Origin: a virus
Length of the DNA: 28,710 nucleotides
Reading direction: 5' to 3' (one strand)
IMG/VR virus record: IMGVR_UViG_3300017751_000150
Coordinates: 1-28,710 of that record
Shown: one piece after another, positions 1,097-8,588 of the stretch
How the letters are laid out: every line of letters begins with the position of its first letter
Numbering within the stretch: the first letter of the stretch is position 1
Notes under the pieces: model-generated
What the model was told of the DNA's origin: nothing
The model's input: the letters and a program-made list of their open reading frames with translations, nothing else
Database searches by the model: none
Made by a program: the position numbers and the translations under genes

Positions 1097-1276
1097 TTAC
1101 CACGCTGCTATGCAATCTGGAGTTTTACTTTCCTTAGTTATCTTACCATGCTTTACTTGGTAATGACTTCTAGATGTTGCACAACTAGATAGTGACGTTA
1201 TTACAAACATTACTGCTGCTATTGCTATCAGTAATATTCTTGGTTCTCTTAGAATAGCTTTCTTTATTTTCTGCAT
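1097..1276 (-). CDS. Small lipoprotein (59 aa)
   Basis: Start ATG 1276, stop TAA 1099-1097. The N-terminus is basic (MQKIKKAILREPR), followed by a hydrophobic stretch (ILLIAIAAVMFVITSL) and a lipobox-like LSSC with the lipidated cysteine expected at residue 32. The mature part is only 28 residues (CATSRSHYQVKHGK..., ending CIAAW). No acidic residues follow the cysteine, so the Bacteroidota surface-export signal is absent and a periplasm-facing anchor is more likely. Its size and lipobox resemble an outer spanin (Rz1-like), but no paired inner spanin is evident; it could instead be a host-modifying lipoprotein. It is first in a unit with two membrane proteins. Confidence 0.65.
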   Translation of the reverse strand: MQKIKKAILREPRILLIAIAAVMFVITSLSSCATSRSHYQVKHGKITKESKTPDCIAAW

Positions 1277-1745: not shown

Positions 1746-1903
1746 TTAACCTAAACGTTTATACTCTGTCATAAGAGTGCATGACTTATGCGTTTGGATT
1801 AACGCACCAGTCCTGAATGGTAAACATACCATGCTCAGAGATGATGTAATTTTTCACTTTAAAAGAAAATAAAAGAACAAATGCCTGTTGTTGGTCATAG
1901 GCA
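1746..1903 (-). ncRNA. Inverted-repeat-rich leader or small RNA
   Basis: This gene-free stretch holds several inverted repeats: CTAAACG/CGTTTGG (1751-1757 with 1791-1797) enclosing ACTCT-GTCATA-AGAGT (1763-1778) or, alternatively, CATAAG/CTTATG; then a perfect ATGGTA-AACA-TACCAT hairpin (1817-1832); then TGCCT...AGGCA (1882-1903), followed on the minus strand by a U-rich run. The nested stem resembles a three-way junction. It lies between the terminator of the 148-aa gene and the start of the 75-aa gene, so it would be the latter's leader or an independent RNA. No riboswitch class recognised. Confidence 0.35.
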
Positions 1904-1949
1904 GAAAATACCATACAGATATATCTTATCTGATGAGAGTGAACACAAA

Positions 1950-1969
1950 ACCCACCCCGAAGGGTAGGT
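1950..1969 (-). terminator. Intrinsic terminator with UUCG loop
   Basis: On the minus strand ACCTACCC and GGGTGGGT pair over eight bases around a UUCG tetraloop, followed by UUUUGUGUU. It lies 14 bases past the stop of the 148-aa gene, as expected for a rho-independent terminator. Confidence 0.8.
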
Positions 1970-1983
1970 AAGTGCTTAGCAGC

Positions 1984-2430
1984 TTAGACAGCTAGCATAA
2001 GCGTGCCAGAGGACTTGTGCTGTCCTACGAATGCCTTAGCTAGCAGTGGTAAGCATAGACGAAGAGCCTCTTGAGCACCGTTTGGCTGAGACCTGAAGTC
2101 CGTGTCTCCGCAAAGGCTAAGCATACGTTCGCTTAGACTAGAGCTAACAGTAATATTGTTCTGTACTGTTTCAGAGCCTCTTGTCCACTCGAACCAGATA
2201 GAAACACGACCGTTCTCTGACTGACGAACAGTACCTCCGTTAGCAACAGAGTCTAGACCGAGAGAAGAGACGAAGTCTCCTTTCTCACGTAGCTTGTGAA
2301 GAAAGTCAAGAACAGGAAGCTTGTTCTTAAAGTACTCGCCAGATGATAAAGTTTCAACCTTTTTCGCTCCGTTGTCGAAGTCATTGAATAAAGAGTTAAA
2401 AGCACGTGTAGATGTTGCAGAATTTTGCAT
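1984..2430 (-). CDS. Hypothetical protein (148 aa)
   Basis: Start ATG 2430 (MQNSATSTRAFNSLFNDF...), stop TAA at 1984-1986. No signal peptide or membrane segment. A Ser/Thr/Asn-rich N-terminus leads to a probable helix (YFKNKLPVLDFLHKLREKG), a strand-rich middle (RVSIWFEWTRGSETVQNNITVSS is amphipathic beta), and a helical C-terminus (AQEALRLCLPLLAKAFVG). No family recognised. It is monocistronic: a structured 5' region (2458-2581) precedes it and a strong terminator (1950-1969) follows. Codon use and G+C are higher than in neighbouring genes (CGT, GAG, CTT common), hinting at strong expression or separate origin. The upstream 25 bases are A/T rich with no Shine-Dalgarno. Confidence 0.7.
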   Translation of the reverse strand: MQNSATSTRAFNSLFNDFDNGAKKVETLSSGEYFKNKLPVLDFLHKLREKGDFVSSLGLDSVANGGTVRQSENGRVSIWFEWTRGSETVQNNITVSSSLSERMLSLCGDTDFRSQPNGAQEALRLCLPLLAKAFVGQHKSSGTLMLAV

Positions 2431-2457
2431 AGTATTGAAATTATAAATTAAATTGAA

Positions 2458-2581
2458 ATCCCCTCAAAATTTACGAACAGTCGGTGGGGGATAGAACCCG
2501 ACTGCCCAAGATATTGCCGGGGTAACTTAAGGTAGTAACAGCTGTCTCTTCCACAAGAGTTTTAACTCCAGATGGGGGGAT
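2458..2581 (-). ncRNA. G+C-rich structured non-coding segment
   Basis: The segment is closed by ATCCCC/GGGGAT and contains a seven-base hairpin CAGTCGG...CCGACTG (2478-2504) whose loop, on the minus strand, includes GGGTTCTATCCC, close to a tRNA T arm. Further 5' on the minus strand are GAGTT/AACTC and CTCTT-GTGG-AAGAG, the latter resembling a D arm. I could not complete a cloverleaf: no anticodon stem and no acceptor pair fit. It may be a decayed or intron-bearing tRNA, or the leader of the 148-aa gene. It is clearly more G+C rich than the surrounding intergenic DNA. Confidence 0.4.
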
Positions 2582-2583
2582 AC

Positions 2584-2612
2584 AAAAAACCCCCACGGAT
2601 TAGGAGGGGGTT
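2584..2612 (-). terminator. Intrinsic terminator of the 184-aa lipoprotein gene
   Basis: On the minus strand AACCCCC...GGGGGTT forms a seven-base stem followed directly by six U residues (2589-2584). It lies 26 bases past the lipoprotein gene's stop codon. Confidence 0.85.
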
Positions 2613-2637
2613 ACAAAAGAAAACGTATTAATATGTT

Positions 2638-3192
2638 CTAGTAAGAAGGAGGGTTAGAATTATTTATAAAGTGGTAGACTATTTCGTTACCTCCTGCACT
2701 TAATGGGATCATAATAGTAAAAGACTTATGTGGTTCTGGGCTAGATGAGACTCCTGCTTCCTCATCCCATTTTGTACTATTGGCGTCAATGAATCCTACA
2801 TTAGGACTGTAGCAGATTGTCCCATGGCTATTCCAAAAGCTTTTATATATCGTATCTAAGTCTATGAAGTAGTTCTGACCAAATGCAGATAGGTAGTTAT
2901 TATAGTCTGATATTGTCAGTGTATCTCTAAAGCCGTCGGTAAAGCTAGTAGTATCTTGACCTAGATTACTCAGAACTTTGTTCAGTATGTTAGTATTACA
3001 GAAGTACTCTACACTAGCTACTTGATACCCTTCGATATGCTCAATCTTATGAATACTGTAGTTAGTGCCCCATAGGTCTGCCAAGCTTTCTGTTTCTTGT
3101 GAGCGCCTGATAAATTCATTTGGTTCTAAATTTATCTTTGTGCAGCTAATTGCTAATAGTATAACGAGTGATAATAGGGTAGATTTTTTCAT
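2638..3192 (-). CDS. Lipoprotein (184 aa) in its own transcription unit
   Basis: Start ATG 3192. The N-terminus has a basic start (MKKS), a hydrophobic core (TLLSLVILLAIS) and a lipobox AISC, so Cys17 should be lipidated. The mature protein of 168 residues is acidic and Ser/Asn-rich, with a beta-type pattern (YQVASVEYF, FTIMIPLSAGGNEIVYHF) and two further cysteines. There is no acidic run after Cys17, so surface export is not predicted. No family recognised. It has its own Bacteroidota-type promoter (3288-3318) and a strong terminator (2584-2612), a moron-like layout. A role at the host envelope, such as superinfection exclusion, is an inference from localisation and context only. Confidence 0.8.
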   Translation of the reverse strand: MKKSTLLSLVILLAISCTKINLEPNEFIRRSQETESLADLWGTNYSIHKIEHIEGYQVASVEYFCNTNILNKVLSNLGQDTTSFTDGFRDTLTISDYNNYLSAFGQNYFIDLDTIYKSFWNSHGTICYSPNVGFIDANSTKWDEEAGVSSSPEPHKSFTIMIPLSAGGNEIVYHFINNSNPPSY

Positions 3193-3287
3193 CTTGTTTA
3201 TATGCTAAAAAAAGAAAGTAACAAAGAAAAAAAGCAGGTAGAAGAAGATTTTGATTAGCTACGAATATTTAACGTAACAGAATAGCG

Positions 3288-3318
3288 CAAAGCTACGAAA
3301 TTATTTCTGGAAAGTCAA
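3288..3318 (-). promoter_or_regulatory. Bacteroidota-type promoter for the lipoprotein gene
   Basis: On the minus strand TTG (3318-3316) is followed after 20 bases by TAGCTTTG (3295-3288). This matches the known Bacteroidota primary sigma consensus TTG-N19-21-TAnnTTTG. Transcription would start near 3282, leaving a leader of about 90 bases before the ATG at 3192. Confidence 0.65.
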
Positions 3319-3320
3319 GT

Positions 3321-3542
3321 CTACACATCCTCACCTACTACTGTTAACTTATCTTCGTCTATAATTAAAGTTTTCCATAAGTCTAAATCTAAACCCTTAA
3401 TCTCATCAAGGATCTCCTGCCATCTTGCATTAGCAGCCTCTTTAGTTTTTAAGTCTTTTCTACTGCTTGTACCTAGGTTAGCCCATATACCTGCGTTCTC
3501 TGCTAGTAATTCGTTTACTTTGTCTGTGTATCTTAATGCCAT
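3321..3542 (-). CDS. Hypothetical helical protein (73 aa)
   Basis: Start ATG 3542, stop TAG at 3321-3323. The 73-residue product is largely helical and acidic: YTDKVNELLAENAGIWANLG, then a Lys/Ala-rich helix (KTKEAANARWQEILDEIKGL) and a short C-terminal strand (KTLIIDEDKLTVVGEDV). No membrane segment, no recognised family. It follows a hairpin/terminator (3558-3590) and its stop codon lies directly next to the -33 element of the promoter at 3288-3318. Small soluble phage proteins of this kind often bind host proteins, but nothing here identifies a partner. Confidence 0.65.
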   Translation of the reverse strand: MALRYTDKVNELLAENAGIWANLGTSSRKDLKTKEAANARWQEILDEIKGLDLDLWKTLIIDEDKLTVVGEDV

Positions 3543-4862: not shown

Positions 4863-4894
4863 TTGTTATGTAAGTCAATCTTTTTATATATTTG
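4863..4894 (+). promoter_or_regulatory. Bacteroidota-type promoter for the packaging/virion genes
   Basis: TTG (4863-4865) is followed after 21 bases by TATATTTG (4887-4894), matching TTG-N19-21-TAnnTTTG. The first ATG of the rightward region lies 24 bases beyond it (4919). This sits in the only divergent intergenic region of the window, which supports it as a main rightward promoter. Confidence 0.6.
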
Positions 4895-4918: not shown

Positions 4919-5515
4919 ATGAAATCCTACCCTTTACAGGTTCCAACAAATAAGGATAAAATCTATGATCAATTTTTAGCGATCATAAATTTTTTAATAT
5001 ATGAAGAAGACAAAGGTAGTACAAAACTTAGTCCTCTTACAAATAAGGAACTATCTGCATTAGCTGCTGTAATGTATTACAACGACAAGTATCGTAAATT
5101 ACCACAGCCTGAAAGATCAGAATATATTATGTCTACAGACATTCGTAAAAAAATCAGGAGTAGATTAGGCTTAAAAGCTAACCATCTTAATAATATTATA
5201 GCTAGACTAAAACAAAAGTATTATTTAGGAGAACCTGTTCTAAATAATTCTCAACTAGCTTCTACTTTAGATATTTATTTAGATACTGATATATCCATAG
5301 AGTTTAAGTTAAATTATGCAGAATTACCAAAGAAGTCAGAAAATTCTAATACAGAATCTAGCAGAGAAGTACGATCTAACTCCGGAGAGAGTGAACAACC
5401 TATTAGCAATGATGGGCAAGTTTACAGTAGCGAAGATGGCGGAGATACAGAAGGGGGAGGACAATCTGTTCGATCCGGAGACAGCTCTGACAATTCACAT
5501 AGGCCTATTCGGTAA
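4919..5515 (+). CDS. Helix-turn-helix-like protein with disordered tail (198 aa)
   Basis: I choose the ATG at 4919 over an in-frame TTG nine codons upstream because the TTG lies inside the promoter element at 4887-4894. Residues about 10-115 form a helical domain, including SPLTNKELSALAAVMYYN and a likely recognition region RKKIRSRLGLKANHLNNII followed by ARLKQKYYL, which looks like a winged or plain helix-turn-helix. The last 60 residues are a Ser/Glu/Gly/Asp-rich low-complexity tail; that part is overlapped in another frame by the 97-aa gene. Position two genes before TerL makes a DNA-binding packaging role (small terminase) or a late regulator plausible. Family not recognised with certainty. 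Confidence 0.7.
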   Translation: MKSYPLQVPTNKDKIYDQFLAIINFLIYEEDKGSTKLSPLTNKELSALAAVMYYNDKYRKLPQPERSEYIMSTDIRKKIRSRLGLKANHLNNIIARLKQKYYLGEPVLNNSQLASTLDIYLDTDISIEFKLNYAELPKKSENSNTESSREVRSNSGESEQPISNDGQVYSSEDGGDTEGGGQSVRSGDSSDNSHRPIR

Positions 5516-5609
5516 ATTTATTCCTAAAAAAGCTAGGATGAATAAAGTACGCCAGACTATGGCTACACTTAAGAAAAAAAATGCTATCAAGAAGAACAGA
5601 AATATTTGA
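5316..5609 (+). CDS. Small basic protein overlapping its neighbours (97 aa)
   Basis: Start ATG 5316, inside the preceding gene in a different frame; 200 bases are shared. The product looks like a folded domain: NLAEKYDLTPERVNNLLAMMGKF is helix-turn-helix-like, FDPETALTIHIGLFGKFIPK is a strand-rich segment, and the C-terminus (KKARMNKVRQTMATLKKKNA) is strongly basic, suggesting nucleic acid binding. The IHIGLFGKF type of motif is one I associate with small proteins near terminase genes in Bacteroidota phages, but I cannot name the family. Its stop lies 29 bases inside the next gene. The hydrophobic pattern makes this frame the better-conserved candidate in the overlap. Confidence 0.65.
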   Translation: MQNYQRSQKILIQNLAEKYDLTPERVNNLLAMMGKFTVAKMAEIQKGEDNLFDPETALTIHIGLFGKFIPKKARMNKVRQTMATLKKKNAIKKNRNI

Positions 5610-6096
5610 CACAGAGCGTAGTTATTGGGAGACGTATCCTGAGATAAGGCTACACCCACAGTTTTCTCCTACGTATAGGAAAGATAAGACTAAAAAGAAA
5701 ACTACTTCTTCTAATATGATGTGGGCTTTTCATTTAGTATCCCACCCAAAGTCTTTAATGTACTACGATCCAAACAAGCTAGAGAATGTAAAAGGATTAC
5801 TACCTAAGTCCTGGGATTGGGAGGGTTCTTCTGAGAGTAGTATGTTAGAGACTTATAGGGGGCTTATGCTAAGTGAAGCACAGCGTGCCTTGACTGATTG
5901 GGACGAGATGATTAAAAAGAGATCATCGTATCTTAAAAACCAAGACTATAATCTAGAGACAGGTAATGATTTAGATAAACTCCATAAGAACACATACTCT
6001 ATTTATAAAGACTATCAAAAGATCTGTGAGGAGCTAACCAACGAAGAAAATTCTAATATTAATTCCGTATCTCTATCTGAGAGCGGAGAAATTTAA
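5581..6096 (+). CDS. Hypothetical protein upstream of terminase (171 aa)
   Basis: Start ATG 5581, overlapping the previous gene by 29 bases. No signal or membrane segment. The product is rich in aromatic residues in its first half (ERSYWETYPEIRLHPQFSPTY, MMWAFHLVSHP, YYDPNKLENV, LPKSWDWEG) and helical in the second (MLETYRGLMLSEAQRALTDWDEMIKKRSSYL), ending with a Ser/Asn/Glu tail. The position between small DNA-binding-like proteins and TerL suggests a packaging or terminase accessory role, possibly the small terminase. I do not recognise the family; the suggestion rests on context only. Confidence 0.7.
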   Translation: MLSRRTEIFDTERSYWETYPEIRLHPQFSPTYRKDKTKKKTTSSNMMWAFHLVSHPKSLMYYDPNKLENVKGLLPKSWDWEGSSESSMLETYRGLMLSEAQRALTDWDEMIKKRSSYLKNQDYNLETGNDLDKLHKNTYSIYKDYQKICEELTNEENSNINSVSLSESGEI

Positions 6097-6100
6097 ACAA

Positions 6101-6433
6101 ATGAGTAAACAAAAAAACCCACCAGCTAGTCATCAAAAGACACTGCAGAAGATTAATACTATTCAAAAAGAAGTACAAGAGTTTAATACTCAGTGTGTGC
6201 AAAGTGTAAATTATAATCATGGTAAAATCAAAGTGCTTGAAATGATCCTAGAACAAATGCTAGAGGATTCAGTAAAGGAACATGAGTTTACAGATTTTGA
6301 AGAGAGCGTATTTAATAAAGAGTACGGATTCTTATTTGCAAAATTTTTTATTCATCTAGAATCAAAGAACATTATTAAAGTTAACTTCCCTGAAGAAGAA
6401 GAAGAGGATGAACTTCTGGACGACAGTAAATAA
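6101..6433 (+). CDS. Coiled-coil protein just before TerL (110 aa)
   Basis: Start ATG 6101, four bases past the previous stop. The protein begins with a basic, Gln-rich part (SKQKNPPASHQKTLQKINTI), has a long helical, coiled-coil-like middle (QKEVQEFNTQCVQSVNYNHGK, KVLEMILEQMLEDSV), a FAKFFIHLESKNIIKV segment, and an acidic end (EEEEEDELLDD). It overlaps the TerL start by 26 bases, so translation of the two is probably coupled. A basic N-terminus plus a helical oligomerising core plus an acidic tail, directly before TerL, fits a small terminase subunit or a packaging accessory, but I recognise no family motif. Confidence 0.7.
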   Translation: MSKQKNPPASHQKTLQKINTIQKEVQEFNTQCVQSVNYNHGKIKVLEMILEQMLEDSVKEHEFTDFEESVFNKEYGFLFAKFFIHLESKNIIKVNFPEEEEEDELLDDSK

Positions 6434-8588
6434 TTCTTCATTTATTCTACCTGAGATCCCTAATCTCCATCCTATAGCTGACCGCTATGAGTATCGAGAT
6501 TTCTGGAAACAGGAGAAGAGAAGAATAATTGAAGGGCATTGGGAGTCCTGTAAATGGATTCCCGGCCCTTTATATTATTATATTAACTTCCATAACATTC
6601 TTGTAGAGGATCCTAAGACTTTAGCTCAAAGACCTGGCAAGCCATGGTTAAGAGATATAGACTGGGAACTCTTTTTAATATATGAAGAATGCAGAGGGTT
6701 CTCAGGATTCTCTGATGATACTGAAAAAACATGTAATAGATTCTTAGGGCCAGAAAGAGCTGCTATAGAAGAGATGGGTATGTTACCGCAATACTTATCA
6801 TTAGGTGTAATCAGGGAAGAAGATTTAAAAAAAGAGTACGTACCTGCTAGACATTACTTAAGAACAATTCATGATAAGAATTTAGGTAAGCCCTTATACC
6901 AAAACGCTGCAAAAAATCTTATGTCTATTCAAGCCCGTGGTGGAGGTAAGTCCTATGCATCTGCAGGTATTGGAGCACACAACTGGTTAACAGGAGGAGC
7001 TATTAACTATGATGAATATCTACTAGCTAAAAGAGATAAGAAGCCTCTTACATCTGATACTATTATAGGAGCTATAGATTCTAAATGGTCTGGGCCTCTT
7101 TTAGATAAAATACTATTTGGTTTAAATAATCTACCTGGAGAGTTTGAGTACGAGTCTTCTATATTCCCTAGCCCATTATTTAAGTCTTGGTCAGGTTCAA
7201 AGAAAGAAGGATCGTTTCTTAAAAACATAGACGGGTCATATCTATACCACAGAACATTTAGAAATAACCCTCTTGCAGGTAACGCAGGTCGTCCTAACTT
7301 AGTAATGCTAGATGAGGTCGGTTTCTTCGATATACTAGTAGAAACAATTGGTGCCTTAGAAGGAGCTGAAGCATCTAAGATGTTTAAACGGCAGGTTATA
7401 TGGATGTTAGGTACAGGAGGATATACTCAAGGAGGTTCTGTATTATTTGCAGAGAATGTATTCCGTAACCCAGATCAATACAACTGTTTAACATTTGATG
7501 ATACGTTTGAGTCTAGAGGTACTATAGGATATTTTGTACCTGTTACACAGACTCGTAATAAACATAAGAAGGGGCCTAACCTTATTACAGACAATAACTC
7601 TGCAATGTTAGAGGAGGATGCGAATAGAGATAAAAAACGTAAAGACTTAACTAGGTATCAGGTACATATAATTAACAACCCGATCCTACCTTCAGAAGCA
7701 TTCCTTGTAACAGAAGGTACAAGATTCCCAACTGTATTATTAAAAGACCAGCTGTCAGAAGTACTAGGAGGAAAGAAGAAAAGATTTTTAGATGCTACCT
7801 ATAAAGGGTGGTTAAAGTTTAATGAGAAAGAAGAAGTATACTTTGAGACAGTGCAGGATCAATTACCTATACGTACATTTCCATTAGATAGAACGGAGAA
7901 AAAGCAGGGCTTAGTAGAGCTATTTCAAAAGCCTAAAAAAAATGATGAGAATGAAATAGACTCTAGAAGATACATAGCAGGTATAGATGTCGTAGATAAA
8001 GCAAAAGCTACTACAGACTCTTTGCCTTCTATAATAGTATTTGATAGATTAACTCGAACTATTGTAGCAGAGTATACAGGACGTACAGATGACCCAAAGT
8101 TTTTCTACGAAGTGTGTAGACGTTTACTAATGTATTATAAAGCTACAGGAATGTACGAGCAAAACTTTATTGGACTGTTTAATTACTTTGTTCAGAACAA
8201 TTGTACGTTCTTGCTTGCAGAAACTCCGTACCAGCTTAGAAACTCTGATACATATAAAATAGGTAGTAATACATCAAAAGGGATTTATAACTCTGGTAGA
8301 ATTAACGATACAGGATTAGATTACATTAACTCTTGGCTTATGAGTCCTATTTCTGTCAACAACGATAACCTTGTGCTAAGTACAGTATTGTCTCCTTCTA
8401 TACTAAAAGAATTGATCAGATGGAACCCAAAAGGAAACTTTGATAGAGTTTCTGCGTTAATTATGTTATTTTGGTACGACGAAACAATGCATAAAGCGAA
8501 AAAAGAAAAAACAGAACAAAGAAATACCTTCCTAGAGAACAAATACTTTACAAAACGTAAAGGAAGTAGTGGGAGAAGATTTTTTTGA
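6408..8588 (+). CDS. terL: Terminase large subunit (TerL)
   Basis: The 726-residue packaging motor. The ATPase domain carries Walker A at residues 177-182 (RGGGKS) and Walker B at 299-303 (VMLDE, with the catalytic Glu). The C-terminal RNase H-like nuclease has a first acidic position in YIAGIDVVDK and a second in FLLAETP, with a later Asp/Glu in FWYDET. Length is typical for crAss-like TerL. The protein cuts concatemeric DNA and drives it through the portal. Start ATG 6408 lies inside the preceding gene; the next internal Met is over 100 residues later, so this start is secure. The portal gene follows after 13 bases. Confidence 0.95.
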   Translation: MNFWTTVNNSSFILPEIPNLHPIADRYEYRDFWKQEKRRIIEGHWESCKWIPGPLYYYINFHNILVEDPKTLAQRPGKPWLRDIDWELFLIYEECRGFSGFSDDTEKTCNRFLGPERAAIEEMGMLPQYLSLGVIREEDLKKEYVPARHYLRTIHDKNLGKPLYQNAAKNLMSIQARGGGKSYASAGIGAHNWLTGGAINYDEYLLAKRDKKPLTSDTIIGAIDSKWSGPLLDKILFGLNNLPGEFEYESSIFPSPLFKSWSGSKKEGSFLKNIDGSYLYHRTFRNNPLAGNAGRPNLVMLDEVGFFDILVETIGALEGAEASKMFKRQVIWMLGTGGYTQGGSVLFAENVFRNPDQYNCLTFDDTFESRGTIGYFVPVTQTRNKHKKGPNLITDNNSAMLEEDANRDKKRKDLTRYQVHIINNPILPSEAFLVTEGTRFPTVLLKDQLSEVLGGKKKRFLDATYKGWLKFNEKEEVYFETVQDQLPIRTFPLDRTEKKQGLVELFQKPKKNDENEIDSRRYIAGIDVVDKAKATTDSLPSIIVFDRLTRTIVAEYTGRTDDPKFFYEVCRRLLMYYKATGMYEQNFIGLFNYFVQNNCTFLLAETPYQLRNSDTYKIGSNTSKGIYNSGRINDTGLDYINSWLMSPISVNNDNLVLSTVLSPSILKELIRWNPKGNFDRVSALIMLFWYDETMHKAKKEKTEQRNTFLENKYFTKRKGSSGRRFF

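Follow-up and report, generated by a model that had tools for sequence, protein, structure and literature searches.

The window analyzed here, an entire IMG/VR record of 28,710 bases that is probably a genome fragment, carries on its minus strand a gene for a 184-aa protein with a lipobox, preceded by a promoter and followed by a terminator. Phage morons are, in general, extra genes with their own promoter and terminator that are missing from close relatives, and an earlier reading, made from the sequence alone, had proposed that this locus is such a self-contained, moron-like unit with a host-modifying role. The locus raises two questions: whether the gene and its control signals arrived together or the gene entered signals that the phage already possessed, and what the protein might do for the phage. 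Although they do not form lysogens, crAss-like phages persist with their hosts, and to our knowledge the ways in which they modify infected cells are poorly known.

Judged from its structural genes, the window is a crAss-like phage contig. Cellulophaga phage phi14:2 (Crassvirales, Steigviridae) has a terminase 33% identical to that of the window over 98%. The portal and major head protein of the window also find matches among phage families, and these three genes, with a crAss-type terminase, follow one another in the same order as in phi14:2. From about 6.4 kb on, the structural genes point rightward, and the lipobox gene belongs to a leftward block. Through the terminase we identified close relatives, the closest being L029 (94% identity; the same contig as L003), followed by L004 and L005 (91% each) and, at a greater distance, L011 (79%). 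Support in a terminase tree of these relatives was weak to modest, and phi14:2 was uninformative as its root because the outgroup branch was too long.

Control signals of the slot

The features of the locus, in window coordinates, are as follows.

1984..2430, minus strand: downstream neighbor, 148 aa, no assigned function; the other border of the slot in the window, L029, L004, and L005
2584..2612, minus strand: intrinsic terminator, a 7-pair stem and then T6 (from folding; kept in relatives)
2638..3192, minus strand: ORF for the 184-aa putative exported protein with a lipobox, predicted to be mature from Cys17 (ORF with five- and six-member alignments)
3142..3192, minus strand: predicted signal peptide and lipobox, MKKSTLLSLVILLAIS-C (pattern test)
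3193..3282, minus strand: pyrimidine-rich leader (alignment with relatives)
3288..3318, minus strand: promoter of the Bacteroidota sigma-A type, TTGACTT-N14-CGTAGCTTTG (read directly)
3321..3542, minus strand: upstream neighbor, 73 aa, truncated relative to the 103-111 aa of its counterparts in L029, L004, and L005
3564..3590, minus strand: hairpin and T-run just before the neighboring ORF 3542-3321 (kept in relatives with changed sequence)

The Bacteroidota-type promoter lies where the sequence-only reading had placed it, with TTG separated by 20 nt from TAGCTTTG (3318-3288, minus strand; full sequence TTGACTTTCCAGAAATAATTTCGTAGCTTTG), and the conserved block extends as CGC to 3285. Its -7 box agrees with the consensus TAnnTTTG mapped for flavobacterial sigma-A promoters in F. 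psychrophilum (PMC9723704). The motif TTGACTT-N14-CGTAGCTTTG occurs once in the window. TAnnTTTG alone is not enriched there (26 observed versus 33 expected), the pattern TTG-N19-21-TAnnTTTG is found 7 times versus 1.8 expected (the maximum among 200 shuffles was 6), and when the 138 nt preceding the ORF were shuffled 5,000 times, the latter pattern arose in 47 cases. The best evidence for this candidate promoter is comparative, in that all 20 box positions are invariant across five phages, as against 6 of the 14 spacer positions. Furthermore, the stop codon of the preceding gene falls within the TTGAC of the promoter in L029, L004, and L005, implying that the promoter is part of the phage backbone. 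At such sites the promoter pattern was seen only in relatives of the window phage, and a wider scan of 109 stretches disclosed no additional slot. In the window itself, the preceding ORF (3321-3542, minus strand) has lost the C-terminal ...CLSCGA end and with it the stop codon that overlaps the promoter in the relatives. Elsewhere in the window, a TTG-N21-TATATTTG motif (4863-4894, plus strand) stands directly before the rightward operon and is kept in seven relatives; it sits in a reading frame (Y-I-F codons) and may be coding, so that its conservation proves little.

The leader is about 90 nt long, as had been claimed, and much of it, TCGTAGCTAA...TCTTCTACC...TTTTTTCTTTG, is common to the window and to relatives that lack the ORF. 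A structured leader RNA was rejected (8 pairs, no compensatory change), as was pairing of the leader with the GGAGG site before the neighboring ORF, which reached at best rank 70 among 1,290 windows. An Rfam search over the region returned nothing at gathering thresholds and only chance-level matches below them.

The terminator is likewise present, but "strong," as it had been described, is more than the window warrants: its stability there is moderate (-11.8 kcal/mol, z = -2.2), and the relatives, with other stem sequences at this site, reach -15 to -17 kcal/mol. It is kept, with changed stems, in L029, L004, L005, and L011, and all of these fold (-11.8 to -17.1 kcal/mol). The further claim that other leftward genes are packed differently holds only in part, since a similar conserved hairpin with a T-run precedes ORF 3542-3321. 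As a consequence, the slot is flanked on both sides by a terminator-like hairpin.

Other features of the minus strand outside the protein genes were also noticed. Between the terminator and ORF 2430-1984, a conserved, GC-rich intergenic stretch (2435-2575) contains the blocks GAAGAGACAGC..TACTACC..CCCCGGCAAT..TTGGGC; its consensus fold has some compensatory pairs with an unfavorable covariation term, and no Rfam match was found for it. A long intergenic gap at 1277-1474, with blocks nearly identical to L011 (1306-1336, 97%; 1419-1477, 83%), is a possible RNA element, and a tRNA-Arg (ACG) lies at 428-502.

The gene in relatives and in unrelated phages

In L004 and L005 the slot has the same neighbors on both sides as in the window (homologues of ORFs 3542-3321 and 2430-1984), and L011 retains a further neighbor, 3879-3610. 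In none of the three does a gene-sized ORF separate the promoter and leader start from the terminator that follows, and no copy of the gene was found elsewhere in the compared sequence of their contigs. The slot of L029 holds a 174-aa homologue, and the end of its leader beside the ATG is the same as in the window. Since L004, L005, and L011 have both promoter and terminator but no ORF, the control signals appear to be older than the gene, which by this comparison seems to be cargo that the window and L029 carry between leader and terminator. That L011, the more distant relative, lacks the ORF favors one gain over two losses, to the extent that the modest tree support allows; the ORF may instead have been lost in two lineages.

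Profile searches recovered four further homologues beyond the window and L029. They lie in phage contigs (L030, L031, L032, and L046) that are otherwise unrelated to the window: over the stretches compared, the 184-aa gene is the sole match, apart from one short basic protein in L031. The contigs have a different type of terminase, along with ERF proteins, nucleases, cytosine methylases, or a lysis cassette. There the homologues sit inside operons, and the promoter motif of the slot does not occur upstream of them. No entry in Pfam, PHROG, NCBIfam, or the PDB matches the protein, neither phi14:2 nor any other phage record yielded a homologue, and the searches of phage, plasmid, and genome collections gave no relative (each genome scan relied on two short peptide patterns, so that diverged relatives may have escaped it). 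By these comparisons the protein founds an unnamed family, of which we found six members, 60-80% identical. Its presence in otherwise unrelated phage contigs supports moron-like lateral spread. Synonymous sites are mostly saturated across the six members and dN is 0.16-0.35, which indicates strong purifying selection; the gene thus appears constrained and its transfers not recent.

In the protein tree, the L029 protein clusters with that of L032 (93/91), apart from the window protein, hinting at separate insertions in the window and L029. We did not adopt this explanation, because the leader end at the ATG is common to the two and the stretch 1837-3327 is evenly diverged (70% DNA identity, with similar divergence throughout). 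Since the next gene has diverged about as much as the 184-aa gene (60% and 62% identity, respectively), one ancestral insertion with a subsequent transfer or allele swap suffices.

The proposal of a self-contained moron-like unit therefore survives in part. Promoter, ORF, and terminator do form one unit in the window, and the distribution of the gene, absent from the corresponding site in three relatives and present in four otherwise unrelated phage contigs, is that of a moron; what fails is joint travel because, unlike in phage morons generally, relatives lacking the gene retain the promoter and terminator, and in other phages the gene occurs without them. A classic moron, in which all three parts arrived jointly and the ORF-less relatives are deletion remnants, could still produce the identical pattern through two or more losses. 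We regard it as rather unlikely, given that the promoter motif precedes none of the four non-crAss homologues, that the promoter is embedded in the backbone and confined to the relatives of the window phage, and that even the more distant L011 is without the ORF. We favor, at roughly even odds (about 0.5), the explanation that a mobile cargo gene for an exported envelope protein entered a conserved promoter-leader-terminator cassette that a crAss-like phage lineage already had. This suggests that a moron need not bring its own promoter and terminator, which can be part of the phage backbone instead.

What the cassette did before it held the gene is a matter for more tentative proposals. It is possible, although we would not count on it, that it was ancestrally a small-RNA gene that serves as a docking site, where envelope cargo inserted before the terminator gains expression by the host polymerase independently of the virion RNA polymerase. 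It seems quite improbable that the cassette is still primarily a small-RNA gene, or an attenuator of the next gene, with the ORF as a passenger under little selection. In L004, L005, and L011 the promoter would yield an RNA of ~100-150 nt ending at the terminator, and the leader is partly conserved, but the purifying selection on the ORF, the lack of a supported leader structure, and the unremarkable complementarity to the nearby GGAGG all speak against this proposal.

A precedent for the spread, if not for the cassette, is Ltp of Streptococcus phage TP-J34, also a scattered, laterally acquired phage lipoprotein gene, which its authors propose to be a moron (PMC3952083). The phage that encodes Ltp is temperate and infects a Gram-positive host, whereas here the phage is crAss-like and the cassette is apparently older than the gene.

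Export and lipidation of the protein

All six members have a signal-peptide-like N terminus, whereas the lipobox cysteine is found in four of them, the L029 and L032 proteins having a signal peptide without the cysteine. What the members share is thus export and not lipidation. The window protein itself has the signal peptide, lipobox, and cysteine of a bacterial-type lipoprotein, and its LAISC17 passes a PROSITE-type pattern, making lipidation at Cys17 probable; the earlier claim of lipidation can be upheld for this protein, but not as a family trait. A surface export signal, C-x-K-(D/E)2, has been described for Capnocytophaga lipoproteins (PMC5080379). This signal is absent after the cysteine of the window protein (CTKINLE), and only the L030 member (CYKEE) matches it, which suggests that the window protein faces the periplasm. 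It is most likely, on these sequence features, a periplasm-facing outer-membrane lipoprotein.

The C-terminal half of the protein is highly conserved. AlphaFold, run once with 2 and once with 6 sequences, reached a pLDDT of 36-37, too low for a usable model, and a PDB sequence search with E up to 10 gave no meaningful match to any chain. The same leftward block of the window contains a second small lipoprotein-like ORF (1097-1276, minus strand; 59 aa, LSSC) with a weak match to phrog_301, "secreted protein," and in the corresponding block L005 has a lipoprotein-like ORF of 75 aa.

Possible roles in the infected cell

In Crassvirales, early genes are assigned to the virion RNA polymerase, and the host polymerase is credited with late genes (PMC10136315); a time course is available for crAss001 (PMC8375218). 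In the cassette, the host RNA polymerase would read the unit, and the hairpins on both sides, together with the host-type promoter, would uncouple the gene from the virion-RNA-polymerase program of the phage. The protein would be exported, lipidated at Cys17, and kept on the periplasmic side of the outer membrane, where it might bind a host envelope protein, possibly the phage receptor or a partner in DNA entry, and so protect the infected cell from further phages in the manner of T5 Llp. That protein, the nearest working model, is a lipoprotein of the periplasm and jams the receptor FhuA (PMC9586334). The gene resembles cargo for modifying the host envelope, and superinfection exclusion along the lines of T5 Llp, a role that the sequence-only reading had suggested in general terms, fits as a hypothesis. 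The window protein resembles exclusion lipoproteins of the Llp and Cor type in being phage-encoded and, like Llp, it is predicted to face the periplasm. However, Llp is much smaller, two members of the present family lack the lipid anchor, and no meaningful similarity to the Llp/Cor family emerged from the PDB (E up to 10), PHROG, or Pfam, these being library searches rather than pairwise comparisons with Llp.

The main rival to an envelope role in exclusion is an accessory role in lysis, in which the protein, much like an accessory spanin, would help to disrupt the outer membrane, or to couple it, as infection ends. It owes this rank to the gene context in L031, where the next genes after the homologue are a weakly Rz-like ORF, an M15 endolysin, and another lipoprotein-like ORF, and a host-type promoter would suit late expression. 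However, the L030, L032, and L046 homologues lie among replication, nuclease, methylase, or ERF genes, and two members have no lipid anchor. Known outer spanins are short lipoproteins, whereas the present protein is larger, with high conservation in its C-terminal half. Taken together, these points make a lysis function unlikely, if less so than the joint arrival considered above.

That the product is a virion or structural protein seems very improbable. Being a phage gene with no assigned function, it could in principle have such a role, but in the window it lies away from and opposite to the structural operon, its homologues in L030 and L046 are in replication clusters, a lipobox is present, and the protein matches no virion PHROG. 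Cargo acting on the host envelope is the role that we prefer, and a new exported protein family, common to unrelated phages and held here in a conserved host-type expression cassette, offers a compact candidate for host-envelope modification.

The region of L031 that combines the homologue with lysis genes spans 5001-6828, and the contig also carries GroEL.
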